Of a stretch of 64,000 bases of DNA, positions 22,929 to 50,536 are shown in pieces (position 1 is the first letter of the stretch; the number at the start of each line of letters is the position of its first letter). Under the pieces are notes generated by a model that saw nothing but the letters and a program-made list of their open reading frames with translations, had not been told where the DNA came from and made no database searches. The stretch spans positions 377,210-441,209 of the forward strand of contig NZ_SRMP01000003.1 of assembly GCF_005925325.1 (NCBI RefSeq), given 5' to 3'. Source of the stretch: Pedobacter helvus. GTDB taxonomy: Bacteria > Bacteroidota > Bacteroidia > Sphingobacteriales > Sphingobacteriaceae. A program made the translations under genes and the position numbers.

Positions 22929-24275
22929 TTAATATCCACTATCATTTAGTGCGAAAGTGTTTTTTCTATCCTTCCATTTACCTTGCGTAAAATCTGGGAA
23001 CTCTTGCGGCTTATTTCCTTCTTTTAATGATTTGGTAGATAAAGGTGTAATTACACTCATGGTTACCGAATCGTACACATCTATTGGCGTCTGTTTCTTG
23101 TCTTTTACTGCGATGACAAATGCGTTGAATACAAACCAGTCCATACCACCGTGGCCCGCACCCAAGGCATTACTTTCGTACTTCTTCCAAAGAGGATGAT
23201 CGTACTTCTTAAACCAATCTTCTGCTTTATCCCAAGCGTGCGGCTTAGAAACGCCTTCGATATGAACTGATTTATTTACATCCATCCACAAACCATCAGT
23301 TCCCTGAATTCTAAAACCAAGCGAATATGGTCGAGGCAAATGTGTATCATGCGTTAACATCACTGTTTCGCCATTAGCACAATTCAATAAAGTAGTTGTA
23401 ACATCGCCATTTTTATATTTGATTTTTGCATTTGGATGTCCTGGCGATTTTTTTTCTACATAGTCTGCCAAACCTCTAGCCTTCGAACTGAACGAGACTA
23501 AATTTGTAAATCTATTGCCTCTATTGATATCTACACATTGCATAATTGGCCCAACCCCGTGAGTAGGATATAGGTCTCCGTCAACATCGATGTTAAATTG
23601 CGTACGCCATTGCGCCTCACTTAAAGCTTTGGGGCCAAACTCCACTCCACCGCCATAGTACTGTTTCCCGTTATTAAACAGTACTTCTCTTAAATCGTGC
23701 TGATAGCCGCCTTCTAAGTGTACCAATTCTCCAAACAATCCTTGTCTCACCATATTTAACGCCGCTAACACATCCCGACGGTAACACACATTTTCTAAAG
23801 TCATATAAGGCATACCGGTTTTTTCTGATGTCCTTACAATATCCCAATGTTCTTTAACGGTTAGTCCGGCAATTACTTCGCAACCCACATATTTACCTGC
23901 GTTCATCGCATAGATAGATTGTTCATGATGAAACTGCCAAGGCGTAGAAATAATAATCGCATCAAGATCTTTTCGGTCTACCATTGCCTTGTAAGCATCT
24001 AAAGAGCCTGTGTACTCCTTTGCCATAGCTTTACCTGATTTAGCAATTGCCTCTCGGCATATTTTAAGCGAACTTTCTTGCGTATCGCAAACAGCTACAA
24101 TCTCTACATCGTCTCTTAACAAGCCTTCTTTAATATGGTTCATCCCCCTTGCCCCAACGCCGATGTAGCCTAAACGCACTTTATGAACATCTTTAGCAAA
24201 TAATGAACCCGAGGGCAAAATGGTAAAACCTGCTGATGCTATAGCTCCAGTTTTAATAAAATTTCTTCTCTCCAT
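22929..24275 (-). CDS. Gfo/Idh/MocA-family protein, GH109-like, Tat-exported
   Basis: 448 residues. A twin-arginine signal (MERRNFIKTGAIASAGF) suggests folded export with bound NAD. The Rossmann motif LGYIGVGARGMNH (about 34-46) and the dinucleotide-binding AVCDTQ follow. The substrate-domain features (VGCEVIAGLTVKEHW, LYPTHGVGPIMQCVDINRG, HPLWKKY...GGHGGMDW-like sequence AGHGGMDWFVF) resemble glycoside hydrolase family 109, which removes alpha-N-acetylgalactosamine by an NAD-dependent redox mechanism. Substrate is not certain. Monocistronic; no SusCD pair nearby. Confidence 0.85.
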   Translation of the reverse strand: MERRNFIKTGAIASAGFTILPSGSLFAKDVHKVRLGYIGVGARGMNHIKEGLLRDDVEIVAVCDTQESSLKICREAIAKSGKAMAKEYTGSLDAYKAMVDRKDLDAIIISTPWQFHHEQSIYAMNAGKYVGCEVIAGLTVKEHWDIVRTSEKTGMPYMTLENVCYRRDVLAALNMVRQGLFGELVHLEGGYQHDLREVLFNNGKQYYGGGVEFGPKALSEAQWRTQFNIDVDGDLYPTHGVGPIMQCVDINRGNRFTNLVSFSSKARGLADYVEKKSPGHPNAKIKYKNGDVTTTLLNCANGETVMLTHDTHLPRPYSLGFRIQGTDGLWMDVNKSVHIEGVSKPHAWDKAEDWFKKYDHPLWKKYESNALGAGHGGMDWFVFNAFVIAVKDKKQTPIDVYDSVTMSVITPLSTKSLKEGNKPQEFPDFTQGKWKDRKNTFALNDSGY

Positions 24276-25035: not shown

Positions 25036-25422
25036 ATGAAAAAAGAAATATTGATTATTGAAGATGAAAAAATCGTTAGCTATTTTCTCGAGACAAGACT
25101 AAAGAAAGATGATTTCGGTGTAGAAGTAGCATTAGATGGACAAGAGGCGATGCGCAAAATACATCATAAAAAATACGACTTGATATTAACAGACATGATG
25201 ATTCCAAACATATCTGGGCTAGAACTCATTATGAAAATTAAAAGATCTGGGCTTAATTTAAAGACTCCTATTCTGGTACTGTCTAGCCTATCGTCGGCAG
25301 ATTTAATTGTTGATGTATTAAGCAGTGGAGTTAACGATTACATCACCAAACCTTTTTCAATTAAAGTTCTAATGGCTAAAATACATCAGTTGTTAGATGC
25401 CCCAGTATCTGTAACTAACTAA
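25036..25422 (+). CDS. Stand-alone response-regulator receiver domain
   Basis: 128 residues, a single CheY-like receiver with no output domain. Acidic pair Glu9-Asp10, phosphoacceptor Asp53 (LILTDMMIP), the conserved Ser in LVLSSLS and Lys in ITKPF are all present. First gene of the predicted exopolysaccharide operon, 31 nt ahead of the HEAT-repeat gene, so phosphorylation probably controls a protein partner in that assembly rather than DNA binding. Confidence 0.92.
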   Translation: MKKEILIIEDEKIVSYFLETRLKKDDFGVEVALDGQEAMRKIHHKKYDLILTDMMIPNISGLELIMKIKRSGLNLKTPILVLSSLSSADLIVDVLSSGVNDYITKPFSIKVLMAKIHQLLDAPVSVTN

Positions 25423-25453
25423 AGCAGCATTTTTTCACCTAATTCTAGTTATC

Positions 25454-26578
25454 ATGCTTCCACTTTTCGTAACTAGCTTTCCATTTTTGATCCAATTAAC
25501 AGCAATTCTCTCGTTAATTGCCTTCATTATTATCTGCGCTACCATCGTATTTATTTTTGTGAATAGGGTTAGAAGAGCTGGCTTCAAAAGAGATATCATT
25601 AAAGCTGAAAAAATAGTCTATGAAGATCTCAGTGATAATTTTCTAATTTACAATACACTAAGCGAGATCCCCGAAAAAAAGCTGGAGCAAGAATTAAATA
25701 GATTAAGCAAGCTTAAAAACTCCAGTAAAATATTTAGGCAAGCCTTGATTGAGACTATGGTAAAATTTAAGCTCAACCTAAGCGGCACAATGGTTGAAAT
25801 TATAGAGGCTGCCTACTTACGTCTTGGTCTTAACAAGTTAGTGGTTAGTAAACTGAAAAGCTCGATATGGTCTAAAAGAGCGGAAGCACTAAACCAAATA
25901 CAGGAAATGAACGATTCTTCGTCCTTAGCTAAGGTAGAAGCAGCAACTAAAGATCGCAATATCGATGTAAGAGTAAATGCCTATGCTGCTTTAATTCGGT
26001 TAAACGCTTCGGACTGTTTTACGTTTTTGATTGAAGAAAAGCAACAACTTAGCGCTTGGCATCAGGTTTATTTACTAGATGCCATTAGTAAAGCTACGAA
26101 CTTACAACTCCCCGATTTTTCTAACTATTTAAAGGTTGGCAATAAAAGCATTATCTCGCTTTGCATTAAAATTATTGTGCACTACAAGCGCTTTGAGACT
26201 ATCCCTACTATGATTGGCTTGCTAAACCGAAGAGATGAGGAACTAAACTACCAGCTCATAGAAGCACTGGGGCTTTTGAATGCAGAAGAGGCAGAAGAAG
26301 AGCTAAAAGAAATATATCAGCAAGAACCTGAGAACAATAAGTCGCAGATTTTACTGGCTTTAGGCAATATTGCCAGCGGCGCTTCTTTGCAGTTTATCAC
26401 CGCCGAGTTTCTAAAGAACAGAAGCCATCTACTTTTAAAAAGTGCTACCCAAGCAATGGCACAACATCGACCAGCCTTTGCGTCTGCGGCGTTACAAACA
26501 TCACAAAATCTTACAAGTGGACAACAGTTGATGCTTAAACATTTTAAAGAACCTTTAAACTTACATGGAATACTTTAG
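25454..26578 (+). CDS. Membrane-anchored HEAT-repeat protein
   Basis: 374 residues: one N-terminal membrane helix (about 12-36, AILSLIAFIIICATIVFIFV) then a cytoplasmic alpha-helical solenoid with HEAT/PBS-like repeats (for example WSKRAEALNQIQEM, DRNIDVRVNAYAALIRL, LNYQLIEALGLLNAEEAEEEL, QILLALGNIASGASLQF). No catalytic residues seen. Its last 14 nt overlap the start of the glycosyltransferase gene. By position it is a good candidate to dock the synthase and the receiver protein at the inner membrane; this is inference. Confidence 0.88.
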   Translation: MLPLFVTSFPFLIQLTAILSLIAFIIICATIVFIFVNRVRRAGFKRDIIKAEKIVYEDLSDNFLIYNTLSEIPEKKLEQELNRLSKLKNSSKIFRQALIETMVKFKLNLSGTMVEIIEAAYLRLGLNKLVVSKLKSSIWSKRAEALNQIQEMNDSSSLAKVEAATKDRNIDVRVNAYAALIRLNASDCFTFLIEEKQQLSAWHQVYLLDAISKATNLQLPDFSNYLKVGNKSIISLCIKIIVHYKRFETIPTMIGLLNRRDEELNYQLIEALGLLNAEEAEEELKEIYQQEPENNKSQILLALGNIASGASLQFITAEFLKNRSHLLLKSATQAMAQHRPAFASAALQTSQNLTSGQQLMLKHFKEPLNLHGIL

Positions 26579-28019
26579 GTACTTTTTAAACTTCATTTTC
26601 GAGTATTGCATCTTCTATTATAGCCTTGCAGTAATGAGCAGCTACTTGGTGCTGGTTATACTCAGCATCTTAGAGATTGGACGCTACAAAGCACGTTACA
26701 AGGCGATGAACTACCAAGCACTACTCAACTCGCCATTTGTACCAGGGATATCTGTTATTGCTCCAGCTTACAATGAAAGCGCTACCATTAGAAACGGAGT
26801 ACATACGCTACTCGCTCTCAACTATCCAAAATTTGAGGTAATTATCATTAATGATGGCAGTACTGACGACACCTTAGAACAGCTGATTGACGAATATGAA
26901 CTGAAAGAAGTTGATTTTGCTTACAACGAAGAAATCGTAACTCAACCGGTTAAAAGAATTTTCAAATCTACCAATCCAGTATTTTCTAAACTTACTGTAA
27001 TTGACAAAACCAATGGTAAAAGCAAAGCTGATGCCTCTAACGCAGGAATTAACATTGCCAATTATCCATTGTTCTTATGTACAGATATCGACTGTATCTT
27101 ACATCAAGACACCTTGATTAAAATGGTTAAGCCTTTTGTGGAAGAGACCACTCGAGTAATAGCGACTGGTGCGGTAATACGTATTGCTAACTCTTGCGAA
27201 CTAGAAAACGGTTACATGAAAAGAGTTAAGGTCGCATCAGGGTTTTTGCCTTTGTTTCAAGAGTTAGAATACATCAGAGCTTTTTTATTGGGACGAATGG
27301 CTTGGAGCCGTATCAATGGTTTAATGCTGGTATCGGGCGGATTAGGCTTGTTCGACAAAGAGATTGTTTTAAAAGCTGGAGGTTACAACCATGTTTCGTT
27401 TGGCGAAGATATGGAGCTAATTACCAGGATGCGGATTTGGATGCACGATCAAAAGCTGAAATATAAAGTTACCTACATTCCCGATTCGCTTTGTTGGACC
27501 GAAGTGCCATCTACATTGAAAGTCTTTGGCAACCAACGTACTCGTTGGGCTAAAGGCCTGATACAAACGATCTGGTTCCATAAAAAAGCGTTTTTTAACC
27601 CTAAGTATAAAATATTCGGGATGCTTTCGTTTCCCTATTGGGTATTTTTTGAATGGTTGGCTCCAATTATAGAGGCTACAGGTATTTTATTTTACATCTA
27701 TCTCATTGTTAGCGGGCATATTACTTGGTCTTATACATTAATTATGCTTGCGTTTATTTATTCTTTCTCGGTGATGGTTACCATTATTTCCATTTTATGG
27801 GATGAAATATCTGGCTCTCACTACACCAAAAAAAGAGAAATTTTTAAACTCTGCTTGGCGGCGATGGTAGAACCCTTCGTTTTTCATCCTATCGTGCTGT
27901 TTTTTTCTATAAAAGGAAACTGGTTTTTCTTCACTAGGAAACAGTTAAAATGGGGCGATATGAAGAGAAAAGGATTTAATGACAGCAACACACTAGTTTA
28001 CCAAAATGAGCAACCTTAA
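26565..28019 (+). CDS. Processive family-2 glycosyltransferase (polysaccharide synthase)
   Basis: 484 residues. N-terminal membrane helix (about 12-38), cytoplasmic GT-A domain, and C-terminal helices (about 345-375, 385-420 and 440-460), the layout of PgaC and hyaluronan/cellulose synthases. Motifs: nucleotide-binding NDGSTDDT (Asp97), DxD (CTDIDC, 172-177), acceptor-site GGLGLF (258-263), catalytic-base GED (280-282) and QRTRW (324-328, the QxxRW of processive synthases). Expected to polymerise a sugar nucleotide and translocate the chain across the inner membrane. Overlaps both neighbours by 14 nt. Confidence 0.94.
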   Translation: MEYFRYFLNFIFEYCIFYYSLAVMSSYLVLVILSILEIGRYKARYKAMNYQALLNSPFVPGISVIAPAYNESATIRNGVHTLLALNYPKFEVIIINDGSTDDTLEQLIDEYELKEVDFAYNEEIVTQPVKRIFKSTNPVFSKLTVIDKTNGKSKADASNAGINIANYPLFLCTDIDCILHQDTLIKMVKPFVEETTRVIATGAVIRIANSCELENGYMKRVKVASGFLPLFQELEYIRAFLLGRMAWSRINGLMLVSGGLGLFDKEIVLKAGGYNHVSFGEDMELITRMRIWMHDQKLKYKVTYIPDSLCWTEVPSTLKVFGNQRTRWAKGLIQTIWFHKKAFFNPKYKIFGMLSFPYWVFFEWLAPIIEATGILFYIYLIVSGHITWSYTLIMLAFIYSFSVMVTIISILWDEISGSHYTKKREIFKLCLAAMVEPFVFHPIVLFFSIKGNWFFFTRKQLKWGDMKRKGFNDSNTLVYQNEQP

Positions 28020-29586
28020 TCACAATATCTTTAAATATTTATGCACTATCGGGACAGCCATCTTGATGAGCAGTGCCGCCTATGCCCAAAAAATATCATC
28101 AGACGAGCTACTTAAACAGGCACTGTTAGAAACTAATGAGAAACAAAATTATGAGGCCGCAATTAAATTAGCGAAACAAGGACTTGAAGTTAGCCCTAAC
28201 TATTTAGACATAGAAATTTTATTAGGTCGCCTCTATTTATTAACCGGAAAATATGAAGAAGCTGTTGTAACGCTAAAAAGGGTGTTGGCTAAACACCCAA
28301 ATCAAACCGATGCGCTGCAGTATATGATTAATGCCAATTATCAAAATAAGGGTCTTGCTCAGGCGGCAGCCTACTGCTCGCAATTCCTAAACTATTATCC
28401 TAATGATAAAAAAATATGGATCAAGCGAATTGCCATCCTGAGCGAAATGCAAAGCTTTAATGCAGCTAACAATGATATGAAACTTGCATTGAAACGTTTT
28501 CCAAAAGATGCCGATCTTGCCTACTTACATAAAGATCTATTATTTGCACAAGCGTCTAGAGCGTTAATCGAAAAAGATACGTTAAGCGCATTAAAAACTT
28601 ACAGCGAATTATTATCTGCTTACCAAACTGATACCATTGCCAGAAATCAGGTCATTAATCTGCAAACTCAAAGGAAAAATTATACAGCTGCACTAAAGCA
28701 TATAGACACCGCCTTAAACAATGACCAAGACAAAGAAACTCTACTCTTAAAGAAAATAGAAGTTACTCAGCTGATGGGAAACGCCCACGAAGCCTATCAA
28801 ATCTCTAAAACGGCCGCCGCCAGTATTCCAGAAAGCAAAAAAATTAAATTGATTAATGACGACCTGTTTTTACTAAGCAGACAAAATCAAATTGGAATAA
28901 ACTATGCGTTTACGGCAATAAGCCCCAGTTCGCAACAACGTTGGAATGTATACGGATTATCGTATATCCGATCAGAAGAATTTGGAACATTGGTAGGCAG
29001 GGTTAATTATGCCGACAGGAACAATGTAACAGGCTATCAGTTTGAAATTGAGGCCTATCCTACCCATCACAAAAGCTACTCGTACATTAACATGGCTTAC
29101 GCTAATGCTATTGTATTTCCAAAGTTTAGATTTTCTTACTCTTATTTTTTACCCTTTAAAACCTGGGAAACAGAAGTTGGGCTCCGTTATCTAAATAATG
29201 TAGAAGACAATTTTTTAGGTTTTACCGCAGCGCTGGGCAAATATTTCGGTCCTTATTGGCTAAATCTAAAAACCTTTGTTACACCTAACGATAAAAAATT
29301 GGCCAATTCTTATGTGCTAAGTGGAAGATATTACCTTAATGGATCTAGCGATGATTATTTCACCGTCATTGCTGGATATGGTTTCTCACCAGATGATAGA
29401 GGTAGAAACTTTGAGATTGACAACAGGTTGAATATGGAAGCGATACGGTTTACCATCGGTTACCAACGTACTTTATGGAGAACCAATGTTTTAGGTATTT
29501 TTGGCACCTACAACAATCAAAAATACGAGCAAAACATTAAAAGAAATGAATATGAAGCTGCTATTGCTTTCAGGCATAAATTTTAG
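28006..29586 (+). CDS. TPR plus YaiO-family outer-membrane beta-barrel protein
   Basis: 526 residues: signal peptide (about 1-27, ending SSAAYA), periplasmic TPR array (about 30-285, for example YLDIEILLGRLYLLTGKYEEA), and a YaiO-type outer-membrane barrel (about 295-526) rich in alternating aromatic strands and ending in Phe. This is the architecture of polysaccharide exporters such as PgaA, and in E. coli yaiO lies beside a GT2 gene, yaiP. Start ATG 28006 overlaps the synthase stop by 14 nt. Predicted role: guide and release the polymer made by the upstream synthase. Confidence 0.9.
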   Translation: MSNLNHNIFKYLCTIGTAILMSSAAYAQKISSDELLKQALLETNEKQNYEAAIKLAKQGLEVSPNYLDIEILLGRLYLLTGKYEEAVVTLKRVLAKHPNQTDALQYMINANYQNKGLAQAAAYCSQFLNYYPNDKKIWIKRIAILSEMQSFNAANNDMKLALKRFPKDADLAYLHKDLLFAQASRALIEKDTLSALKTYSELLSAYQTDTIARNQVINLQTQRKNYTAALKHIDTALNNDQDKETLLLKKIEVTQLMGNAHEAYQISKTAAASIPESKKIKLINDDLFLLSRQNQIGINYAFTAISPSSQQRWNVYGLSYIRSEEFGTLVGRVNYADRNNVTGYQFEIEAYPTHHKSYSYINMAYANAIVFPKFRFSYSYFLPFKTWETEVGLRYLNNVEDNFLGFTAALGKYFGPYWLNLKTFVTPNDKKLANSYVLSGRYYLNGSSDDYFTVIAGYGFSPDDRGRNFEIDNRLNMEAIRFTIGYQRTLWRTNVLGIFGTYNNQKYEQNIKRNEYEAAIAFRHKF

Positions 29587-31834
29587 TTCTTTCTGTAGAA
29601 ATTTTGCGCTAATCTTTTTGGTATTGATGATGAATGGACTCGCTAAAGCTCAGTTAACATTAGTTGATCGGGGAAAATCTAACTATCAGATCGTACTTTC
29701 TAAATCAGCAGCCGAAGTTCAAAAAAAGGCCGCTACGGTACTCCAAAATTACCTAAAAGAAATCTCCTCTGTCTATCTTCCAATCGTAACGGATGATCAA
29801 GAAAAATCCAAATATGAAATCCGCATTGGTAAAACAAATCGTAAGTTCATCAAACCACAGCTAACAAGCGATGGTTTTGTGATCAAATCTGAAGGGCAAC
29901 AACTCACGATTTATGGCAATAATGACCAAGCTACTTTGTATGGCACCTATCATTTTTTAGAAAAATATTTAGGTTGTAGAAAATTCACACCGACCCTTAA
30001 GTATATCCCGAAGCTAACTACAATAAAGCTGCCTACAGTAAATGACTTACAAAATCCTCAGTTCACATTTAGGCAAGTTTACTACCCTGGACAATACGAT
30101 GAAGAGTTTAGAGCGTGGCACAAACTACAACTGTTAGAAGATATTTGGGGACTTTGGGGACACAGCTTCGATAAATTGGTATCGCCCAAAGTTTACTTCG
30201 CTAACCACCCAGAATATTTTGCGCTGGTAAACGGCGAACGTAAATACACTCAATTATGCCTTAGCAATGCCGATGTTTTCGAGATCTTGGTAAAAGAACT
30301 ATCAAAAAAGATTGATGAAGCACCAGAAAAGAAAATCTGGTCGGTTAGCCAGAATGATGGTTTTGGTTATTGTACCTGTGAGGCTTGCAAAGCTACTGAT
30401 AAAAAATACGGCGGTCCGCAAGGCTCGTTACTTTACTTCGTGAATAAAGTAGCCAAGCAGTTCCCCAACTACACCATTTCTACGCTAGCCTATCTTTATT
30501 CTAAGCATCCTCCAAAGAACATTAAACCTGAAAAAAATGTGAGCATCATGCTCTCATCTATCGATATAGATCGGGCAAAGCCGATAGTAAACAATCCGAG
30601 AACAGCCTCATTTCGAAATGATGTAGTGGGCTGGTCGGCACTTACAAATCAGCTGATGATATGGGATTATGTGGTTCAGTTTACAAATTACCTAAGCCCT
30701 TTTCCAAATTTGGAAACATTACAGCCCAACGCGAATTATTTTGCAGCTAACAAAGTAAGTGGTGCATTTTTTCAAGGTACCGAAAACACAGCTGGAGAGT
30801 TTTCTGCACTAAAAGCATATTTACTTGCCAAGCTAAGTTGGGATCCTAAGGCAGACATTAGTAAAGCACAATCAGAGTTTATGTATGCTTACTATGGCAA
30901 AGCTGCTCCATTCATTAATCAATACATCAACAAAACAACGGAACAACTGCAGCAATCTAAGCGAGTATTAGATATCTATGGTGATCCGGTAGTTGAGTGG
31001 AATACGTGGTTAAAACCCGACCAAATAGAGCAATACAGCAACATTTTGGAAAAAGCGGCTGCAGTGGTAGAAACCCATCCGAATTTTCTTAAAAATGTGC
31101 GAATAGAGACTTTACCGCTAGAATTTGTTGTTCTGCAACAAGCTCGCTTTTATGGCTTAGACAGACATGGACTTTTCGAGCTTCAAGAAAATAATGGGTG
31201 GAAGTTGAGACCAGGTATGGAAAGGAAGCTGGACACTTTTATGGAACTGGGAAGAGAAGCAAATATATTGCAGCTGCAAGAAGATGGGCTTACATTAGAA
31301 AACTATGGGCGAGAATGGCAAGAAATCATGAAAAGTGGCCCGCTACTACACGATGCACTAGGTAAACAAGTTACCTTCCTAAGTGCTTACAGCCAAGAAT
31401 ATCCCGCGAAGGGTGCTGCTACTCTTACTGATGGAACTTACGGTTATCTCAACTATCAATATAACTACTTGGGTTGGTTTGGTACCGATATGGATGTGTT
31501 TATTGATTTAGGTAAGAGCAAATTGGTAGATTCTATATCCGCTGGGTTTTTGGAAGATCAACGGCACTGGGCATTTCTACCATCAAATATTAGCGTTGAA
31601 CTTTCTAATGATAAGCGAACCTTTGTAAAGGCAGGCGAAATTAATACTAAAAGCCCCGAAGAGCATTACGATAAAGTTAACCACAGGCCTATTATCAAAA
31701 TTAATATCGACCAACCATATCGCTATGTGAGGATAAAGGCTAAGAACTTAACTCAACTGCCTATTTGGAGAGATCTACCTAACCGTAAACCTTGGATTTT
31801 TTGTGACGAAATTGCTGTTTTCGAAAAAAAATGA
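29552..31834 (+). CDS. Secreted DUF4838 glycoside-hydrolase-like protein
   Basis: About 760 residues from the ATG at 29552, giving a hydrophobic signal peptide that ends near NGLAKA; the frame overlaps the YaiO gene by 35 nt. Domains: an alpha-glucuronidase-like N-terminal domain (about 25-130), a DUF4838 domain (about 210-480) with the signature SQNDGFGYCTCEACK, and a C-terminal carbohydrate-binding-like region (about 620-755, discoidin-like IDQPYRYVRIKAKNL). Probably trims, cleaves or modifies the exported polymer, taking the place PgaB has in PNAG systems. Catalytic activity of DUF4838 proteins is not established to my knowledge. Confidence 0.87.
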   Translation: MKLLLLSGINFSSFCRNFALIFLVLMMNGLAKAQLTLVDRGKSNYQIVLSKSAAEVQKKAATVLQNYLKEISSVYLPIVTDDQEKSKYEIRIGKTNRKFIKPQLTSDGFVIKSEGQQLTIYGNNDQATLYGTYHFLEKYLGCRKFTPTLKYIPKLTTIKLPTVNDLQNPQFTFRQVYYPGQYDEEFRAWHKLQLLEDIWGLWGHSFDKLVSPKVYFANHPEYFALVNGERKYTQLCLSNADVFEILVKELSKKIDEAPEKKIWSVSQNDGFGYCTCEACKATDKKYGGPQGSLLYFVNKVAKQFPNYTISTLAYLYSKHPPKNIKPEKNVSIMLSSIDIDRAKPIVNNPRTASFRNDVVGWSALTNQLMIWDYVVQFTNYLSPFPNLETLQPNANYFAANKVSGAFFQGTENTAGEFSALKAYLLAKLSWDPKADISKAQSEFMYAYYGKAAPFINQYINKTTEQLQQSKRVLDIYGDPVVEWNTWLKPDQIEQYSNILEKAAAVVETHPNFLKNVRIETLPLEFVVLQQARFYGLDRHGLFELQENNGWKLRPGMERKLDTFMELGREANILQLQEDGLTLENYGREWQEIMKSGPLLHDALGKQVTFLSAYSQEYPAKGAATLTDGTYGYLNYQYNYLGWFGTDMDVFIDLGKSKLVDSISAGFLEDQRHWAFLPSNISVELSNDKRTFVKAGEINTKSPEEHYDKVNHRPIIKINIDQPYRYVRIKAKNLTQLPIWRDLPNRKPWIFCDEIAVFEKK

Positions 31835-31938: not shown

Positions 31939-33066
31939 ATGAAGAAAGCAATAAAAATATTTAAATACACTATGATTGTTTTATTAAGCTTAGCTGTGCT
32001 ACTTGCTATATCTACCTACTTCTACATGCGTCTACCTAAATTTGGAAAAGCACCGAGCGGCAAACGCTTAGCACTTATACAGCAATCTCCCAACTATAAA
32101 GATGGCAAGTTTCAAAACTTTCACTATACACCAGATTTAACTGAAGGCTACTCGATGGTAGGTATCATGTTCGATATGCTCTTTAAAAATCATCCGCGAC
32201 GTAAACCCACAGACAGTATCCCTTCAATTAAAACTGATTTATTGAACTTACCTGCTGATTCTAACGTGCTGGTTTGGTTTGGCCATTCTTCTTACTTTAT
32301 GCAAATTGAGGGCAAGCGTTTCTTGGTAGATCCGGTATTCAGTGGTAACGCTTCGCCTATTCCTGGCACTACCAAGTCTTTTAAAGGTGCGGATATTTAC
32401 AGCGTAGCCGATTTACCCAACATCGATTATTTAGTGATTAGCCACGATCATTACGACCACTTAGATTATGAAACCATCATCGCCCTGAAAAATAAAGTAG
32501 GCAAGGTAATTTGTGGTTTGGGTGTCGGCGAGCATTTCGAGTATTGGGGTTACAAAGCTGATCAATTGATAGAAAAAGATTGGAATGAGAAAGTTGACTT
32601 GGGAAATAATTTCGTATTAAATACTGTTCCAGGAAGACATTTTTCTGGTCGCAGCTTTAAACGCAACAACACTTTGTGGACTTCTTACTTACTCGAAACA
32701 CCTAAGGGTAAAATATTTATAGGTGGCGATAGCGGTTACGATACACACTTTGTGGAGATTGGCAACAAGTTTGGACCAATTGATTTAGCTATCTTAGAAA
32801 ACGGGCAGTACAATGTAGCTTGGCAAGCCATCCACACTTTACCGAAAGAAACTGTGCAGGCAGCAAAGGATTTGAAAGCAAAACGGTTTTTTCCAGTTCA
32901 CTCTTCTAAATTTACACTTGCCATGCATCAATGGGACGATCCTTTAAATGATGTTACTCAAATAAATAATGGAGAAATCCCGATGGTAACACCTATGATC
33001 GGTGAAGTGGTGAACTTAAACGACCAAAATCAGGTATTCACCCAATGGTGGAAAGGAATTAAATAA
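31939..33066 (+). CDS. MBL-fold metal-dependent hydrolase (UlaG/NAPE-PLD-like)
   Basis: 375 residues from the ATG at 31939 (MKKAIKIFKYTMIVLL); the longer frame starts with TTG. An N-terminal membrane helix or uncleaved signal (about 5-27) leads to a metallo-beta-lactamase domain with VWFGHSSYFMQI, FLVDPVF, the metal motif SHDHYDHLD, and later GRHFSGR, GGDSGYD and PVHSSKF, the order seen in NAPE-phospholipase-D-like enzymes. Substrate unknown; likely acts on a membrane lipid or small lactone. Stop and start overlap by 1 nt with the AraC-type regulator (TAATG), so the two are coupled. Confidence 0.9.
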   Translation: MKKAIKIFKYTMIVLLSLAVLLAISTYFYMRLPKFGKAPSGKRLALIQQSPNYKDGKFQNFHYTPDLTEGYSMVGIMFDMLFKNHPRRKPTDSIPSIKTDLLNLPADSNVLVWFGHSSYFMQIEGKRFLVDPVFSGNASPIPGTTKSFKGADIYSVADLPNIDYLVISHDHYDHLDYETIIALKNKVGKVICGLGVGEHFEYWGYKADQLIEKDWNEKVDLGNNFVLNTVPGRHFSGRSFKRNNTLWTSYLLETPKGKIFIGGDSGYDTHFVEIGNKFGPIDLAILENGQYNVAWQAIHTLPKETVQAAKDLKAKRFFPVHSSKFTLAMHQWDDPLNDVTQINNGEIPMVTPMIGEVVNLNDQNQVFTQWWKGIK

Positions 33067-33857
33067 TGGAAGTTAAGGCAATAGAAATTACGTCTTGCTA
33101 CATCGGCCCAGAAATTTCTCCTGAGCATTTTATACCAGAACATTTATTTATGTTCTTGGCCAAGGGCGATATTGCTGGTTATGATGGCGATAAAAAATAC
33201 ACACTAAAAAGTGGCGAATACTGCTTGGCCAGGAAAAACCACTTGGCTAGGTATACTAAACAAGAAGACAATGGTGCTTTCGAGAAAGTGGTTGTTGTAT
33301 TCGAGGAAGCTTTCTTAAGACAGTTCCAGCAAAAACATCAAATTAAAAGGACTGGTAGTGTAAGCAAAGGCGCTTTTTACGAGTTGAGTAAAACAGAGTT
33401 GGTTCCAAATTTTGTTAGTTCATTAATGCCCTATTACAATGGCGCACATCAAATAGACAGTGCATTTGAGCAAATTAAAAAGGAAGAATTGCTGCTAATT
33501 CTATTACAAACCAATCCAGATTTGGTGACCATACTTTTTGATTTCGGTATACCAGAAAAAATAGATCTAGAAGCTTTTATGAACCACAATTATAAATTTA
33601 ATGTGGGCATTGAACGTTTCGCTTATTTAACTGGCCGCAGCCTTTCGTCTTTCAAAAGAGATTTCATGAAGATTTTTTCAGAAACACCCAATCGTTGGTT
33701 AGTGAAACGAAGATTGAAAGAAGCTCACTTCTTAATCAATAAGAAAAAGCAAAGACCCACAGAAATTTACCTCGATTTAGGTTTTGAGGATTTATCTCAT
33801 TTTTCTTTTGCCTTTAAAAAGCTGTTTGGCTATGCGCCTACGAGGTTAGCGGAATAA
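33066..33857 (+). CDS. AraC-family transcriptional regulator
   Basis: 263 residues. N-terminal cupin-like ligand region (about 15-110, with LKSGEYCLARKNHLARYT) and a C-terminal AraC double helix-turn-helix (about 175-260) including VGIERFAYLTGRSLSSFKRDF and the second helix pattern IYLDLGFEDLSHFSFAFKK, FGYAPTR. Its coupling to the MBL-fold gene suggests that it controls that gene or shares an inducer with it. Confidence 0.92.
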   Translation: MEVKAIEITSCYIGPEISPEHFIPEHLFMFLAKGDIAGYDGDKKYTLKSGEYCLARKNHLARYTKQEDNGAFEKVVVVFEEAFLRQFQQKHQIKRTGSVSKGAFYELSKTELVPNFVSSLMPYYNGAHQIDSAFEQIKKEELLLILLQTNPDLVTILFDFGIPEKIDLEAFMNHNYKFNVGIERFAYLTGRSLSSFKRDFMKIFSETPNRWLVKRRLKEAHFLINKKKQRPTEIYLDLGFEDLSHFSFAFKKLFGYAPTRLAE

Positions 33858-33963: not shown

Positions 33964-33996
33964 AAAACCCTGTTTTCGTTAAAAAAACAGGGTTTT
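33964..33996. terminator. Bidirectional terminator between the AraC gene and tRNA-Asp
   Basis: AAAACCCTGTTTT (33964-33976) and AAAACAGGGTTTT (33984-33996) form a 13-bp stem; read on the minus strand it ends the tRNA transcript with a T-run. Confidence 0.85.
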
Positions 33997-43337: not shown

Positions 43338-46178
43338 TTACACCCCAAACAATGTCTTATAAATAGAATAACTATAATTATCTGGCACCTCGCTAGCCCT
43401 AAAAGGAACATTCACATCAAACAGCTCTGCGACTTTAGTCTGTAACTCCTCCAAAAAAACAGGCTTCACTTCTTCTAAATAGGCGTCCGATAAAACCAAT
43501 TTTCTTGAATTAAAATGCACCTTGCCATCGGCCATGGTTTTTACAATAAATAGATTAGGTTCTACGCCAGTCCTCCCCGATTGCCTTTCATAAGCATAAG
43601 TGTAAATCAAAGTCTGTATCAAGGCCTTGTTGATACTTTTTCCATCGGTATCAAATAATTTTTCAATAGCAGAGAAAGTTAATTTATCGCCTCCAGTTTT
43701 GTAATCGACGATACGTACAACGCCATTACGTTCATCAACCCTATCTATAAACCCGAATAATTTAACTTGTTCTTTTTTACCATTTAATTCGAATTCTAGT
43801 TCGGTGCTGATTTTCTCCTCCAAACTTAAAATCGTAAATGGCGCATCGACTTCGTCTCTGTTTAGAATAATATTGGTATAGGCCTCTACAATCGCCAAAA
43901 TCACTTTTTGCATTCCCGAATATTCGAGCGTACTTTCCTCTTTGTTCGTCATTACAAAGTTGAAGGCTTTTGCAACTAAAGTTTTAACACTACTTCTTTT
44001 GAGTTTGACAACTTCTGGAGTGACTAATTTTTTAATTTCTGGCTGATAAAAATACTCCATCACCTTGTGCAGAATGGAACCAATCTGATTGGCTTCTATC
44101 ACGGCCGTTACTTCCTCAGGCTCTTTAATTTCGGCAATGTAGCGGAAGAAAAAATCTATCGGATTAGAAATGTACATTGTTAATGCCGATGGCGACAACA
44201 CTTTTTCTCCATTCAAATATTTTTGCAAAGCTTTTTGGATGTTCTCATCCCTCTTATCAATCTCAATAGCTTGTTGAGGCTCCGTGCTAACAGGGAGATT
44301 TAAGGCTTTGTAGTTAAAACTGAAGTTACTTTCATACTCTAACTGCTTTAAAATCCTACTCACTTCTCCAGAGTTATTTTCATCCGTTAGGCCATTATAG
44401 ACAAAATTGATATTCTTTGCCCTTTGCAATAGACGATAGACCATATAGGCGGAAATCGCATCCAAATTCTCTAACACCGGCAAGCCGTAAGCCCTACGAA
44501 TTCCATCTGGAATAAAACTATTTCCAATGGAAGTTTTGGGGATAACTCCTTCATTAAAACCTAAGAAAACAATATTATCAAAGTTAAGGTTACGACTTTC
44601 TAACAAACCCATCATTTGTACGCCTTTCAACGGATCGCCACTTAATGGAACGGAAACACTTTTCAATGATTTTTGAATGAGCTGTACCACAAAATGAAAT
44701 TCTTCATCTTTCACGAAATCTTTCAGCGTATCATTTATTCGAGTTAGCTCCTCTATTGTTTTTACAAATAAATCAGCATCAATCTTTTTTAATGATTTTT
44801 GCGATGACAATCGTGTTAGCAAGAACCGCATCACGTCGAGCAGTTCATTCACCAATTCTGCTGGCTCATCCACTTTGTGGTAAAATTTCTCGAAAATACC
44901 GCCTTGCTTTTGCAGACGAGGCAAATCAATACTTACCACATTATCTTTTAGCAATGCTTCTTGAATATTTGTTTTCAACTTAGTTGTTAATCCAGTAAGC
45001 GGATGTGTAACAAAAGCCTCTAATGTTTGGTAAGTTACTTTGTTGCTTTCTTTCAGCTCTAGTTGGGTAGTAAGCCATAAATCTGCTAAGCCAAAAACGG
45101 TAGAGCTGACTAAGGCAAAACCCATCGTTACGTTCAGATCCAACTGATCATCTAGGGTTTGCAATGCGGGCATCAACAAGCTTTCATCGGCTAAAATAAC
45201 CGCGGTTGTACCAATTTCTTCTTCAGCATCTTCATTAATTTCAATAACCTGATTTAAGATTTTTGCTTGTGCACTTTGACCTTGTACTTTGTAAACATTT
45301 ACCGAATGCGGTTCGGTACTAAAAGTGTTGTGATGGTCTTCGAAAACATTTTTCAGGCCAAGTTGCTTAAGATTTTTTCGCAAGAACAGTCCGGCTTCCT
45401 GCAATTCATCTTCGACATAATAAGCGTCGGTATCGAAATAAAACAAGGCTTTTTCAGCCTCTTGCAATTGTGTAAAAACTTTTGCTTCGGCACGGGTAAG
45501 TGCATTGAACCCAACAAAAATTATTTTGCCTTTTTCAAAAGATTTGATGAAGTCTAGGGATGCTAAATCTGTATTTGCCAAATGGCGGTAAACCTGTCCG
45601 TTGGTGATGTAATTCTGCGCTTTTAACTCCTTATGAAAACGATGGTAAAGCTTCGGCATTCGGCGCCACATTTTGATAAAAAGCTCTTGCTGTTTTTTAT
45701 GTTTCCCCTCGCTATAAGATTGCCAGAACTGTGCTAAAAACTCGTACTGTTCTTTAGAAAGATAGTCGAATTCTAAATTGATTTCAGCCACTTCCTCCAT
45801 TTCTTTGTACAGCCTATCGGCATCAACCAAATCATTGTCTATTTGCGCAAAATCACTTAGCATAATTTTAGCCAAAGGGAAAAACTGACTGCTTTTCATT
45901 GGCGATAAGCCTTCTTCTACTAAAAGTTGATTATACACTTTTAACAGCGTGAAAAACTGCAAATAGAAATCGGCAGTTTTCGCTTCAACACTGCCTGCGA
46001 AAAACTGTTGTACGGTATAAATAGACGGACTAAAAAATGGCTTTTTGATAATATCCGCTAAATATTTACGCAGATAAGTAGCCGGCCTGTTGTTATTGAA
46101 AACAATGGCGCAATATTGTAAATCATCGCCAAACTTGGCAACTAAATCTTGAGCAACTTCTTTTAAAAATGGGGTCAT
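43338..46178 (-). CDS. addB: AddB-like PD-(D/E)XK nuclease/inactivated-helicase subunit
   Basis: 946 residues. Large N-terminal region related to inactivated helicase of AddB (with NNNRPATYLRKYLADII and FDNIVFLGFNEGVIPK, the latter around residue 530), and a C-terminal RecB-type nuclease: GSILHKVMEYFY (about 700) and the catalytic VRIVDYKTGG (about 825). Partner of the AddA-like helicase-nuclease upstream in dsDNA-break end resection and recombination. The gene between them encodes another nuclease, which is unusual. Confidence 0.88.
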   Translation of the reverse strand: MTPFLKEVAQDLVAKFGDDLQYCAIVFNNNRPATYLRKYLADIIKKPFFSPSIYTVQQFFAGSVEAKTADFYLQFFTLLKVYNQLLVEEGLSPMKSSQFFPLAKIMLSDFAQIDNDLVDADRLYKEMEEVAEINLEFDYLSKEQYEFLAQFWQSYSEGKHKKQQELFIKMWRRMPKLYHRFHKELKAQNYITNGQVYRHLANTDLASLDFIKSFEKGKIIFVGFNALTRAEAKVFTQLQEAEKALFYFDTDAYYVEDELQEAGLFLRKNLKQLGLKNVFEDHHNTFSTEPHSVNVYKVQGQSAQAKILNQVIEINEDAEEEIGTTAVILADESLLMPALQTLDDQLDLNVTMGFALVSSTVFGLADLWLTTQLELKESNKVTYQTLEAFVTHPLTGLTTKLKTNIQEALLKDNVVSIDLPRLQKQGGIFEKFYHKVDEPAELVNELLDVMRFLLTRLSSQKSLKKIDADLFVKTIEELTRINDTLKDFVKDEEFHFVVQLIQKSLKSVSVPLSGDPLKGVQMMGLLESRNLNFDNIVFLGFNEGVIPKTSIGNSFIPDGIRRAYGLPVLENLDAISAYMVYRLLQRAKNINFVYNGLTDENNSGEVSRILKQLEYESNFSFNYKALNLPVSTEPQQAIEIDKRDENIQKALQKYLNGEKVLSPSALTMYISNPIDFFFRYIAEIKEPEEVTAVIEANQIGSILHKVMEYFYQPEIKKLVTPEVVKLKRSSVKTLVAKAFNFVMTNKEESTLEYSGMQKVILAIVEAYTNIILNRDEVDAPFTILSLEEKISTELEFELNGKKEQVKLFGFIDRVDERNGVVRIVDYKTGGDKLTFSAIEKLFDTDGKSINKALIQTLIYTYAYERQSGRTGVEPNLFIVKTMADGKVHFNSRKLVLSDAYLEEVKPVFLEELQTKVAELFDVNVPFRASEVPDNYSYSIYKTLFGV

Positions 46179-46180
46179 TT

Positions 46181-46212
46181 AATTTACGATTTTAGATTGA
46201 CGAGTTACGATT
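46181..46212. repeat. Direct repeat flanking addB (right copy)
   Basis: Identical over 23 bp to 43262-43284 in the same orientation; lies just upstream of the addB start and behind the YhcG-type gene. Confidence 0.85.
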
Positions 46213-46225
46213 TGAACAACCGCCA

Positions 46226-47245
46226 TTATTGAAAATATTTCTCAATCTTCTCTGAAATTGTTTTATTATCAGGAAGTAATTTTTGGTAATCTTTCGGTAT
46301 TTGTGTTGATGTATTGTAGCTGGCTACACCTATCGGCTGATTGCCCGTTTTCAAAGAATACTCTACTACCGTTCTGTTTTTCTCTTTACAAATGATGATA
46401 CCAATACTATCATTTTCATTTGGCATCCTCACTTTTTCGTTAAGTAAGGTGAGATAAAACTCCATCTTCCCTTTATATTCGGGTATAAATTCGCCGATTT
46501 TTAACTCGATAGCTACTAAGCATTGGAGTTGACGATGATACAAAAGTAAGTCGACAAAATACTCCTTCTCTTCAACCTCAATTTTAAATTGATTACCTAC
46601 AAACGTGAATTGATGACCCATTTCAAGCAAAAAATTGCGGATATTTTGCACCAGAGCATTTTCAAGCTCTCGCTCCGAATGTTCATCTGCAAGACCTAAG
46701 AAACTGAAAGTATACTCATCCTTAACTGCCAAAACAGCTTGATTTTTAATGCTATCTGGTAATGTACTATCAAAATTAGTTTGATTTAGCAGGTACTTTT
46801 CATACGTCTTATTTTCAATTTGATGAATTAAAACGTTCTTTGTCCATCCAAATTTTTTAGTAGAAAGAATGTAAAACTGTCGCTCTAAACTGTCTTTACA
46901 TTTTTTAAGGATAGTGACATGTTTACTCCAACTAATTTCTCGTACCAGCGGTACGAGATTTTCATCTTCCTGATATTCAGTGTAAAATTGCGCCATCAAC
47001 CATAAATTCCCTACTGAAAAACCACCCACACCAGGAAATTCTTTTTGTAACTCTGCAGACAAAGTTGGCACCACAGCTTTACCCCAGTTTAGGCTTTGCT
47101 TTTCGGTAAGTGATTTCCCAATTTCCCAATACAAATTAATCAACGCAACGTTAACCGCTTTCAGTGTATCATACTGTGCTTGCCTAACTTTAGTTTTAAT
47201 TTCACTAATAAAATCAAATTGTTCGGTGGAAGATATTTCTTTCAT
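46226..47245 (-). CDS. YhcG-type PDDEXK nuclease (DUF1016)
   Basis: 339 residues from the ATG at 47245 (MKEISSTEQ); the longer frame starts with TTG. N-terminal DUF1016 helical domain (LINLYWEIGKSLTEKQ, GGFSVGNLWLMAQFY, WSKHVTILKK) and a C-terminal PD-(D/E)XK nuclease core with EYFVDLLLYHR and CLVAIELKIGEF (Asp and Glu-x-Lys). Family members are frequent in restriction, toxin and mobile contexts. It separates addB from addA, which are normally adjacent, and its downstream side carries a dispersed repeat, so it may be an insertion. Confidence 0.9.
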   Translation of the reverse strand: MKEISSTEQFDFISEIKTKVRQAQYDTLKAVNVALINLYWEIGKSLTEKQSLNWGKAVVPTLSAELQKEFPGVGGFSVGNLWLMAQFYTEYQEDENLVPLVREISWSKHVTILKKCKDSLERQFYILSTKKFGWTKNVLIHQIENKTYEKYLLNQTNFDSTLPDSIKNQAVLAVKDEYTFSFLGLADEHSERELENALVQNIRNFLLEMGHQFTFVGNQFKIEVEEKEYFVDLLLYHRQLQCLVAIELKIGEFIPEYKGKMEFYLTLLNEKVRMPNENDSIGIIICKEKNRTVVEYSLKTGNQPIGVASYNTSTQIPKDYQKLLPDNKTISEKIEKYFQ

Positions 47246-47287
47246 ACCCAAATACTTTTAACGATTTAACATTAGAAAGGCTACAAC

Positions 47288-50200
47288 CTACACCTCTTTC
47301 AACTCCTGCGTTACCGCGTAAAACAAATAACTTTTCACTTTCTCAAACCCCATCTGCGTTAACAAATCCTTATAATTCAAAATCTGCTCGATGTGCTGAT
47401 TGGTTTGTTCTAAAGTAAACTTATAATCGATAATGGTTACGCCACCTGCATGTACCACAATTCTATCAGGTCGGTGCAACTTTCCATCGGCGTCGATGAT
47501 GTTTTTCTCTATGATATTTTCGGTAGATTGATCTAAAATCGCTTTCAATTCTGGATGGTTAAGCACTTCCATCACGCCTTCTTTTAAACCGTCAAACTCA
47601 TCTTTGGCAATTACACCGCTAATCAACATTTCATTCAAACAATCTTCTACTTCTTGTGCTGTAGTTGCGTTGGCCAAAACCTCATGTTTAATAGAACCGA
47701 CCCTGCCAGACTGCTCAATATTGAGCACATGTTGCAAATGTTTATCCTGCGACGGAACATACAAAGCCGACAAACGATTGGTGGTTGGATATTCCTCCAG
47801 TTCGAAATTATTACTATCCTCTACTTTGGCTGGCTCAATCACATCTGCAATAATTTCATATCGATTGGTTGCTTCAAATCCTTCGTCTTCGCCAGTGTTT
47901 AATCGCGTAATCACTTGTACCAAAGCATCGCCAATCGAATTGACATTCGAAGCCTCTTTCTTTTCCATCACCGATAGGTACAGGTAATCTTTAGACCTCG
48001 TTGTCGCTACGTAAAGCATGTTCAATGCATCCAAATTACTATCCAAAACTTCTTTATAATAAGCTCTGGCCACACTCGAATTGCTCAAGTCGTCTTCAAA
48101 TTTCAGCGGTATTCCGCCTAATTCTTTATAGGCAGTTTCTGTAGCCGAAACCCAGAAAATGGAGTTAGCCTTAGTTTTCAAATCCCAATTACAGAACGGC
48201 ACGAACACCGCCCTAAAAGCTAATCCTTTAGACTTATGGATGGTAATAATTTGCACTGCATCGGCCTCTTCTGGCGATGGCAATGATTTTTTTACACCGT
48301 CTTCATCCCACCAAGTGAGAAAATTAACAATGCCTTTTTCGCCCATTCTAGTGGCGTTGGCAACTAAATCTCTGAAGGCAAGCAAATATGGAATGTGTTG
48401 TTTCAAACCAGCGATGTCATAAACATCAATCAAGTTTTCTACCAATTCTATTAATGGCAATTGCATCCAATTTTGCCAATTTTCGCAGAGCGATTTGGGA
48501 AGTAAGGCAGACAAATTAGTTAAAGACTTTCCTGTTAAACCCAAATAAGCCGTTGGGGCTATTTCTCTAGCGTGCAAGCGATGATAAAGTGAGATACAAT
48601 TGGCCTTGTAAAGTGCTGTCTGCTTGTCTATTCCCACCAAAACCTTAAGCGTATTGATGATCAAATCAATAGCGCTGTTGTTGGCAATCATCAGCGCTTC
48701 TCCAGATAAAACTGGAATATTTTGTTCCATCAAACGGGTTACACACAACATCGCTTCGAAGTTGGAACGAACCAAAATGGCAATATCTTTAGCTTGATAA
48801 GCTTTCTCAGTTTGCAGAATTTTGATCTCGTCAATTACATCTTGCAAAGCAATTTCGCGATACACAGTTTCTGTAAATCTTTCTACATCCTCACCAGCAT
48901 CGGCCTTGCCAAAACGCTTTACTTTAACAGTGCCTCCAGCTTTTGTGAATGGCGATAATTTTTGCTTTGCTTTTCCGTAAACCGAAGTTACGATATCGCT
49001 GTAGCCATTTTCGTCCCACCATTCTAAAAGCTCGTCAGATTTTTCGGTAACGTTAGTGTTCAACTGATTTTGCACCACCAAAGGCAAAGACTGGTATAAA
49101 TAGTTATTAAAAGTGATGATGTTTTCTGTGCTTCGGTAGTTTTCCTCGAGATTGTCATCAAACACATTATGCTCACCAATTTCGTATTTAGCTTGCTGAT
49201 GCAGGATGTTCCAATCGCCATTGCGCCAGCGATAAATGGACTGCTTAGTATCGCCAACAATTAAGTTATCGATGTGTTTTTGGCTCGGCGAGGCAATCGC
49301 GTTAGACAAAATTGACCTAAAACTTTTCCATTGATTAACGGAAGTGTCCTGAAATTCGTCGAACAAAAAGTTGCGGTATTTGCTTCCAACTTTCTCCCAA
49401 ATAAAGGATGGATTGTCTCCAGCATCGTCCGTAATTCCGGTGATTAATTTTTGTGCATCGCTGATTAATAAGTTGTCGTTTTCGTTGCGATAATCGCTCA
49501 ACAAAACCGCTACTTCTTGCATCAAACGCAAATAGTAAAGGTTTTTATTAAAAGCGATGGATAAACTGTAGGTTGCTAAATTTTGTTCGTGATAGCTTTT
49601 AATGCTGACTAAATATGTATTCAATTCGCTATAAAAAGCAGACAAATCAACTCCTTTTTGGAACCATTCATTTGGTTCATCAATCAATTTAAAAACAGCA
49701 TCTAACTTAGAAAAATCTCCATCAGCGATGTTGCGCACTTTTAGTAAACCATTTCTAGATTTTCCTTTCAGTTGCTCTACCAAAATGCCGTGGTTTTCAA
49801 AAACCTGCCAAGCAGAAGAACCTAGTTCTTTTAATCTATTTTGAAATTGGTTGATTTCTGCTTTGGTAACACGGATATAGTTTTTGAAAAGTTCATCCAA
49901 GCTTGATAAACCTAACGAGTTAATCGCTGTCTCAAAAACCTCGTAGCTATCTTTAAAAACTTCGCTAATCAGGTTAATCAGCTCTGCTTTGTAATTCCAG
50001 CTTTTGTTTTCTCCGATGCGCTCTAGTGCCAAATCAATAATCCATTGCAATAATTGCTGATTATGATTTAAACTTTCATCCAGTTTCTGCACCAACTCAT
50101 CTTTCACCTTATCGTAGTTCATTTCTAAGGTGTAATCCGCGTTTAAGCCCAATTCAAAAGCAAACCCACGAATTACTTTTTGCACAAAACCATCAATAGT

Positions 50201-50536
50201 GCTCACCGCAAAACGACTGTAGTCGTGCAAAATTTTACGATAAACCTTATCCGCTTTTAGCTTTAAAGTTTGTGCATTTAAATCAGGATGCGCGGAAAGA
50301 ACAATCACTCGGTAATCATCGATTTTCTTTGAGGCATCGCCCATGGCAAAGCCTTTCAGCACTTCGAGGATACGGGTTTTCATCTCTTCGGTAGCCTTGT
50401 TGGTAAAAGTTACCGCTAAAATTTCCCGATACTTATTCTCGCCGCTAAAAAGGAGTGTAAGGTAATGCGCTGTTAAACTGAATGTTTTACCAGATCCAGC
50501 TGATGCTTGTAATATTTTGAGTGGTTTAACTGCCAT
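47288..50536 (-). CDS. addA: AddA-like UvrD-family helicase/nuclease
   Basis: 1082 residues. Superfamily 1 helicase with Walker A QASAGSGKTFSL (10-21), VTFTNKATEEMK, Walker B FLFDEFQDTS (about 391) and motif III-VI segments (VGDTKQSIYRWR, QIITIHKSKGLAF, NMLYVATTRSKDYLY). The C-terminus has a RecB-like nuclease domain: GSIKHEVLA and VTIIDYKFT. With AddB it unwinds and degrades broken DNA ends for recombination. Single-subunit RecB/AddA; the YhcG gene lies between the two subunits. Confidence 0.92.
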   Translation of the reverse strand: MAVKPLKILQASAGSGKTFSLTAHYLTLLFSGENKYREILAVTFTNKATEEMKTRILEVLKGFAMGDASKKIDDYRVIVLSAHPDLNAQTLKLKADKVYRKILHDYSRFAVSTIDGFVQKVIRGFAFELGLNADYTLEMNYDKVKDELVQKLDESLNHNQQLLQWIIDLALERIGENKSWNYKAELINLISEVFKDSYEVFETAINSLGLSSLDELFKNYIRVTKAEINQFQNRLKELGSSAWQVFENHGILVEQLKGKSRNGLLKVRNIADGDFSKLDAVFKLIDEPNEWFQKGVDLSAFYSELNTYLVSIKSYHEQNLATYSLSIAFNKNLYYLRLMQEVAVLLSDYRNENDNLLISDAQKLITGITDDAGDNPSFIWEKVGSKYRNFLFDEFQDTSVNQWKSFRSILSNAIASPSQKHIDNLIVGDTKQSIYRWRNGDWNILHQQAKYEIGEHNVFDDNLEENYRSTENIITFNNYLYQSLPLVVQNQLNTNVTEKSDELLEWWDENGYSDIVTSVYGKAKQKLSPFTKAGGTVKVKRFGKADAGEDVERFTETVYREIALQDVIDEIKILQTEKAYQAKDIAILVRSNFEAMLCVTRLMEQNIPVLSGEALMIANNSAIDLIINTLKVLVGIDKQTALYKANCISLYHRLHAREIAPTAYLGLTGKSLTNLSALLPKSLCENWQNWMQLPLIELVENLIDVYDIAGLKQHIPYLLAFRDLVANATRMGEKGIVNFLTWWDEDGVKKSLPSPEEADAVQIITIHKSKGLAFRAVFVPFCNWDLKTKANSIFWVSATETAYKELGGIPLKFEDDLSNSSVARAYYKEVLDSNLDALNMLYVATTRSKDYLYLSVMEKKEASNVNSIGDALVQVITRLNTGEDEGFEATNRYEIIADVIEPAKVEDSNNFELEEYPTTNRLSALYVPSQDKHLQHVLNIEQSGRVGSIKHEVLANATTAQEVEDCLNEMLISGVIAKDEFDGLKEGVMEVLNHPELKAILDQSTENIIEKNIIDADGKLHRPDRIVVHAGGVTIIDYKFTLEQTNQHIEQILNYKDLLTQMGFEKVKSYLFYAVTQELKEV

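Follow-up and report, generated by a model that had tools for sequence, protein, structure and literature searches.

What do five tightly packed genes in a stretch of Pedobacter helvus DNA produce, and how would their activity be controlled? The stretch (64,000 nucleotides; assembly GCF_005925325.1, contig NZ_SRMP01000003.1, positions 377,210 to 441,209; hereafter the window) encodes a stand-alone receiver, a HEAT-repeat protein, a family-2 glycosyltransferase (GT2), a TPR protein with a YaiO outer-membrane barrel, and a secreted DUF4838 protein (Table 1). Direct control of polysaccharide synthases is best known via cyclic di-guanosine monophosphate (c-di-GMP). The five genes probably encode a synthase-dependent polysaccharide secretion system that is governed by the receiver and the HEAT protein rather than by c-di-GMP. 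A Pfam scan and the coordinates confirmed the domains, the common strand and the three overlaps that the initial annotation had described: the receiver and HEAT genes are separated by 31 nt, followed by successive overlaps of 14 nt (HEAT/GT2), 14 nt (GT2/YaiO) and 35 nt (YaiO/DUF4838). The last value holds if the DUF4838 gene starts at ATG 29552, and the N-terminus read from this ATG resembles a secretion signal.

The initial annotation had treated these five genes as one unit whose order should be searched for across Bacteroidota. We searched two partly overlapping sets for the GT2 at 1e-60, 121 genomes from the same family and a 296-genome sample of the phylum, and found carriers in 43 and 70 genomes, respectively. 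In the phylum sample, scoring was limited to the top five candidates of each genome, and extra copies may thus have been missed. The surroundings of every listed copy (about 20 kb) and three named Algoriphagus loci were then labelled with iterative profiles, open reading frame (ORF) by ORF, which, for GT2s of at least 360 aa that scored above 150, gave 131 copies spread over 127 loci, with the tandem copies at L160 and L167 each counted separately. A subset of 117 well-flanked copies was obtained by dropping 14 with less than 3 kb upstream or less than 6 kb downstream. A HEAT gene lies on the same strand at most two ORFs upstream of the GT2 in 115 of these 117 copies, and a lone receiver (no longer than 175 aa, on the same strand and no more than four ORFs away) accompanies 89 (86 upstream and 4 downstream, one having both). 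YaiO, accepted on either strand up to five ORFs upstream or seven downstream, is near 101. The fifth member of the proposed order is far less constant: DUF4838 (at most four ORFs downstream, same strand) follows only 20 of the 117 and 22 of all 131 copies. Judged from these neighbourhoods, the better unit appears to be receiver-HEAT-GT2 together with a YaiO barrel in the same genome, with the other partners interchangeable.

All 127 HEAT matches, found among 2308 ORFs from 143 fetched stretches, sit at most two genes from a GT2, and within this set of stretches no HEAT match occurred in the 15 that lack a GT2. With mechanically chosen starts, the median spacing was -4 nt between HEAT and GT2 (126 pairs) and 10 nt between receiver and HEAT (83 pairs), which fits translational coupling. 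The full five-gene set with the receiver upstream is present in the window and at L083, L098, L150, L151, L160, and L167, and at L100, L101, and L102 the receiver comes after DUF4838. The GT2 copies of L160 (8479-11462, +) and of L167 stand in tandem within one operon, ahead of YaiO and DUF4838. At just two loci, the window genome itself (G000; 4.62 Mb in 12 contigs) carries both of its GT2 copies that reach 1e-60, both of its YaiO barrels, and its only DUF4838. The second receiver-HEAT-GT2 copy lies at L149 (G000:C1:426432-445826), where the GT2 (L149:8965-10413, -) is 49% identical to that of the window, together with a convergent 390-aa gene and YaiO. The first species-named matches in protein searches were from Daejeonella lutea for the GT2 and from Pedobacter chinensis for DUF4838.

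The association with the barrel is nearly exclusive. YaiO was found in 42 of the 43 GT2 genomes of the family sample and in none of the 78 others, and the phylum sample gave 69 of 70 against 0 of 226 (Fisher p 6.7e-32 and 2.0e-67, values that are not corrected for shared ancestry). The thresholds were 1e-60 for the GT2 and 1e-3 for YaiO, the weakest YaiO match being 6e-8, above its cut-off. The genomes with a GT2 and no YaiO are G012 and G255. YaiO need not be adjacent: in G011, 48 kb of a shared contig separate it from one GT2, and in G326 it is found on another contig; in G110, GT2 and YaiO are both near contig ends, and the locus may have been split by the assembly. Loci L208 and L211 have YaiO and no GT2. 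In the genomes surveyed, the predicted receiver-HEAT-synthase core thus travels with the TPR-YaiO barrel. The YaiO barrel is functionally obscure, and the published work on it is, by title and among the matches listed, mostly concerned with E. coli detection or genomics. The TPR domain required of synthase-dependent systems is present in the window protein, and its barrel domain is recognized by both PF19413 and TIGR04390. Among the best 60 of 339 PDB matches to the YaiO alignment, the TPR part matched TPR-type proteins, including BcsC, and none covered the barrel part. By the definition in PMC9601211, synthase-dependent exopolysaccharide systems have a 16- to 18-stranded outer-membrane barrel.

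The GT2 has the predicted fold of a membrane synthase resembling hyaluronan synthase and BcsA. It has a QRTRW motif, and its structural alignment to membrane synthases spans most of its length; the best alignment by Z is to PcManGT, a mannosyltransferase. The best curated family, PgaC_IcaA (TIGR03937), was reached with 123.2 bits, far short of the cut-off of 422.3, and the same model was best for six further GT2s. The predicted fold does not discriminate between sugars.

Pga systems comprise a GT2 synthase, a TPR protein with barrel, and a secreted enzyme with a glycoside-hydrolase-like fold, together with PgaD and c-di-GMP control. The five genes encode counterparts of the first three, and the expected resemblance to synthase-dependent systems was in this respect correct. 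However, it has receiver-HEAT in place of PgaD and c-di-GMP, and scans of the five window proteins named no deacetylase domain, of the PgaB type or any other. Membership in Pga was rejected, with the GT2 score given above and 15.3 bits for PgaA (TIGR03939; cut-off 366.65). Bcs was likewise rejected, the GT2 scoring 37.3 bits with the CelA/BcsA model TIGR03030 (cut-off 699.1). The GT2 has a BcsA-like synthase fold, and BcsC and the YaiO profile match each other in their TPR parts, but the window genome gave no PilZ match and the protein scans named no BcsB or BcsC family. By sequence, the system would work like a synthase-dependent system, yet the curated models place it in neither Pga nor Bcs.

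The parallel drawn with YaiP-YaiO of E. coli holds, though only distantly. The yaiS-yaiP-yaiX-yaiO locus also combines a GT2 with a YaiO barrel, both YaiO proteins match TIGR04390, and the best curated model for YaiP is again PgaC_IcaA. However, YaiP is only 22% identical to the window GT2 over 300 alignment columns (E 4e-6), E. coli YaiO matched the window protein directly at just E 0.022, and no receiver, HEAT, or DUF4838 gene is annotated there. NfrB-NfrA of E. coli is similar in that a glycosyltransferase synthase is paired with a partner in the outer membrane and the two have a signalling input of their own; according to the consulted part of PMC8669469, NfrB is controlled by c-di-GMP binding, but the Pfam scan named no c-di-GMP-binding domain in the five window proteins. 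The literature that we searched, which omits most subscription papers, contained neither a system with exactly this gene set nor a description of a receiver-HEAT-GT2-YaiO system, which may exist elsewhere.

The receiver has the phospho-acceptor D53 and K105, and among 83 aligned operon receivers D53 is present in 79 and K105 in 82. The hydrophobic segment of the HEAT protein comprises residues 18-36, and we propose this membrane protein as a candidate scaffold between receiver and synthase. A search with it found 13 proteins among 7995 candidates scored. At L131, L133, L127, and L128, the HEAT proteins measure 693 to 931 aa, far above the usual length, and a Pfam scan of the one from L131 found nothing beyond HEAT_2. 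A receiver-bearing protein of at least 450 aa is encoded at most five ORFs upstream of 29 of the 117 copies; all four that were scanned are hybrid kinases, and three of them contain an Hpt domain. With regard to c-di-GMP, the window genome, the sole genome tested, gave no GGDEF and no PilZ match (MshEN and other receptors were outside this search), and the same searches were positive in 8 and 5 of 14 control genomes, respectively. This supports the earlier assignment of the regulator to a type other than c-di-GMP control.

The DUF4838 assignment of the fifth protein is clear (357.7 bits with PF16126, curated cut-off 26.6). Its structural model (predicted local distance difference test score 94.8) matches the folds of GH115, GH84, and GH67 and adds a CBM32-like tail. 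Where present, the gene mostly follows YaiO directly, with short gaps or overlaps. DUF4838 occurs in 31 of 121 family genomes (30 over the curated cut-off) and 23 of 296 phylum genomes (22 over); 19 and 12 of these also have the GT2, and 12 and 11 do not. It is an optional accessory and, from the model, a candidate hydrolase of the polymer. CAZy family GH163 is associated with endo-beta-N-acetylglucosaminidase activity. The retrieved portion of PMC9870897 labels a DUF4838 protein as GH163, and that of PMC10154615 describes a GH163 enzyme of B. thetaiotaomicron that takes N-acetyllactosamine antennae off N-glycans. The window protein differs in being encoded with a synthase and an exporter and not with N-glycan breakdown genes.

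Another partner is a sulfatase-fold membrane protein, which is separate from or fused to the GT2 in 47 of 131 copies. Counting separate genes only on the same strand at most two ORFs downstream, and thus not the convergent genes seen in Algoriphagus, it is separate in 22 and fused in 17 of the 117 well-flanked copies. DUF4838 and the sulfatase-fold partner occur together in one of 131 copies (L103), where independence would predict about 8 (22 x 47 / 131). The two thus look like alternatives, though not strictly so, and the expected value does not allow for relatedness among loci. Neither partner accompanies 63 of the 131 copies, about half. The partner recalls BcsG, a phosphoethanolamine transferase of the same superfamily; for two that were scanned, the best models were lipoteichoic acid synthase and phosphoglycerol transferase, far under the cut-off. 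In the window genome and in its congener G105, the partner is reduced to a 236-aa membrane part (L149:8255-8965, - and L155:8264-8974, -), and tblastn of the fetched stretches of L149 and L155 found no catalytic domain for it. Many sulfatase-type systems are accompanied by a 390-aa family (L158:12518-13699, -, and 21 aligned relatives with 26 invariant columns); the two members scanned matched nothing in Pfam at E 0.01, and the family had no PDB match at E of at most 1.

A hint from expression comes from Polaribacter dokdonensis in algal co-culture, where the accessible text of PMC9870897 reports that the GT2 MED152_03905 rose 8.8-fold, the DUF4838/GH163 protein MED152_03915 18.5-fold, and MED152_03105, named a response regulator (GT2), 6-fold. 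The same text places a GT2 and the GH163 outside the foraging loci and attributes the pattern to growth on polymers. Judged from their locus-tag spacing, which fits GT2-x-DUF4838, MED152_03905 and MED152_03915 may belong to the system described here.

The motifs and fold of the GT2, its co-occurrence with YaiO, and the HEAT and receiver neighbourhood support polysaccharide secretion, and the upstream hybrid kinases, the absence of GGDEF and PilZ matches, PgaC_IcaA as the best model, and the joint rise in Polaribacter were counted for it as well. We infer from these data a polymer, its export, and an action of the receiver. Very probably, the GT2 would polymerize a beta-linked sugar chain and translocate it via its own membrane channel, and the chain would quite probably leave through the TPR-YaiO protein. 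There is an even chance that it contains an amino sugar such as N-acetylglucosamine. The view that the DUF4838 enzyme trims or releases the chain is slightly favoured; elsewhere, the sulfatase-fold membrane protein would decorate it. As for control, the phosphorylated receiver could, in what we regard as a balanced proposition, act post-translationally on the membrane HEAT protein, which would in turn act on the GT2 and switch it, filling the place of c-di-GMP in Pga and Bcs.

In principle, the receiver could instead be a phosphate sink or a partner in a transcriptional phosphorelay, with HEAT merely an assembly scaffold and the synthase controlled by transcription and substrate supply. In favour of this, the receiver lacks an output domain, 28 of 117 copies had no receiver detected nearby, whereas just 2 have no HEAT gene upstream, and the large receiver-bearing proteins precede only a minority of the copies. 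However, the receiver gene stands directly before HEAT with short spacing, and D53 and K105 are conserved, which fits a receiver acting on HEAT, and we consider the sink or phosphorelay role rather unlikely. A clearly less probable alternative is that the GT2 product is a glycolipid or another glycan of the envelope and no secreted polymer, with the sulfatase-fold partner as the headgroup transferase for it. PcManGT as the top alignment and the two partner models, distant as their scores are, would agree with this, but the QRTRW motif, the near full-length alignment with membrane synthases, and the near-exclusive co-occurrence with a barrel protein argue against it. Finally, the five genes could be chance neighbours and DUF4838 part of glycan foraging, in keeping with the 11 of 23 DUF4838 genomes of the phylum sample that lack the GT2 and with a DUF4838 gene induced by algal exudate that the available part of PMC9870897 reads as catabolic. 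This is highly improbable: the core genes are associated far beyond chance, which already contradicts it for them, and DUF4838 itself mostly adjoins YaiO where it follows the GT2.

Polysaccharide secretion under receiver-HEAT control would, if true, give the YaiO barrel an export role and provide a modular family for comparing synthase, transferase, and hydrolase partners. If receiver-HEAT gates the synthase, this would also explain rapid switching of polymer secretion in such bacteria. More tentatively, receiver-HEAT-GT2 plus YaiO could represent a widespread class of polysaccharide secretion machines. In these, docking of a phosphorylated single-domain receiver onto a membrane HEAT solenoid would gate a processive synthase, so that two-component signalling would replace c-di-GMP. 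Lineages would exchange the partner enzyme, which is either a DUF4838 hydrolase or a sulfatase-fold protein of the LtaS/OpgB-like kind, encoded on its own or as a fusion with the synthase.

Table 1. Genes and other features of the window discussed in the text.
Feature	Position	Strand	Domain matches (E-value)
Stand-alone receiver, 128 aa	25036..25422	+	PF00072 (7.6e-27)
HEAT-repeat protein, one N-terminal hydrophobic segment	25454..26578	+	PF13646 (7.1e-12)
Membrane-embedded GT2, proposed processive polysaccharide synthase	26565..28019	+	
TPR domain (periplasmic) followed by YaiO outer-membrane barrel, proposed exporter	28006..29586	+	PF19413 (8.5e-43), TPR_19 (6.2e-16), TIGR04390 (6.4e-30)
Secreted DUF4838 protein, glycoside-hydrolase-like body and CBM32-like tail	29552..31834	+	PF16126 (7.3e-107)
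Metallo-hydrolase	31912/31945..33066		Lactamase_B_2
AraC-type regulator, ExsA-like N-terminus	33066..33857		
Terminator-like hairpin (consensus match only)	33964..33996		
Gfo/Idh/MocA-type protein, GH109 C-terminal domain	22929..24275	-	
PDDEXK nuclease and UvrD-type helicase genes, one 341-aa ORF in between	43338..50536	-	

Downstream of the operon follow a metallo-hydrolase gene and an AraC-type regulator gene, which may be co-transcribed with it here, given the gap of 77 nt. As parts of the system, both were set aside: the metallo-hydrolase profile matched the window alone among 104 loci, and AraC-type profiles were found in 17 of 104 loci at variable positions. The hairpin lies beyond the AraC gene. 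A gene for a Gfo/Idh/MocA-type protein is located near the operon, and the more distant nuclease and helicase pair resembles AddB/AddA.

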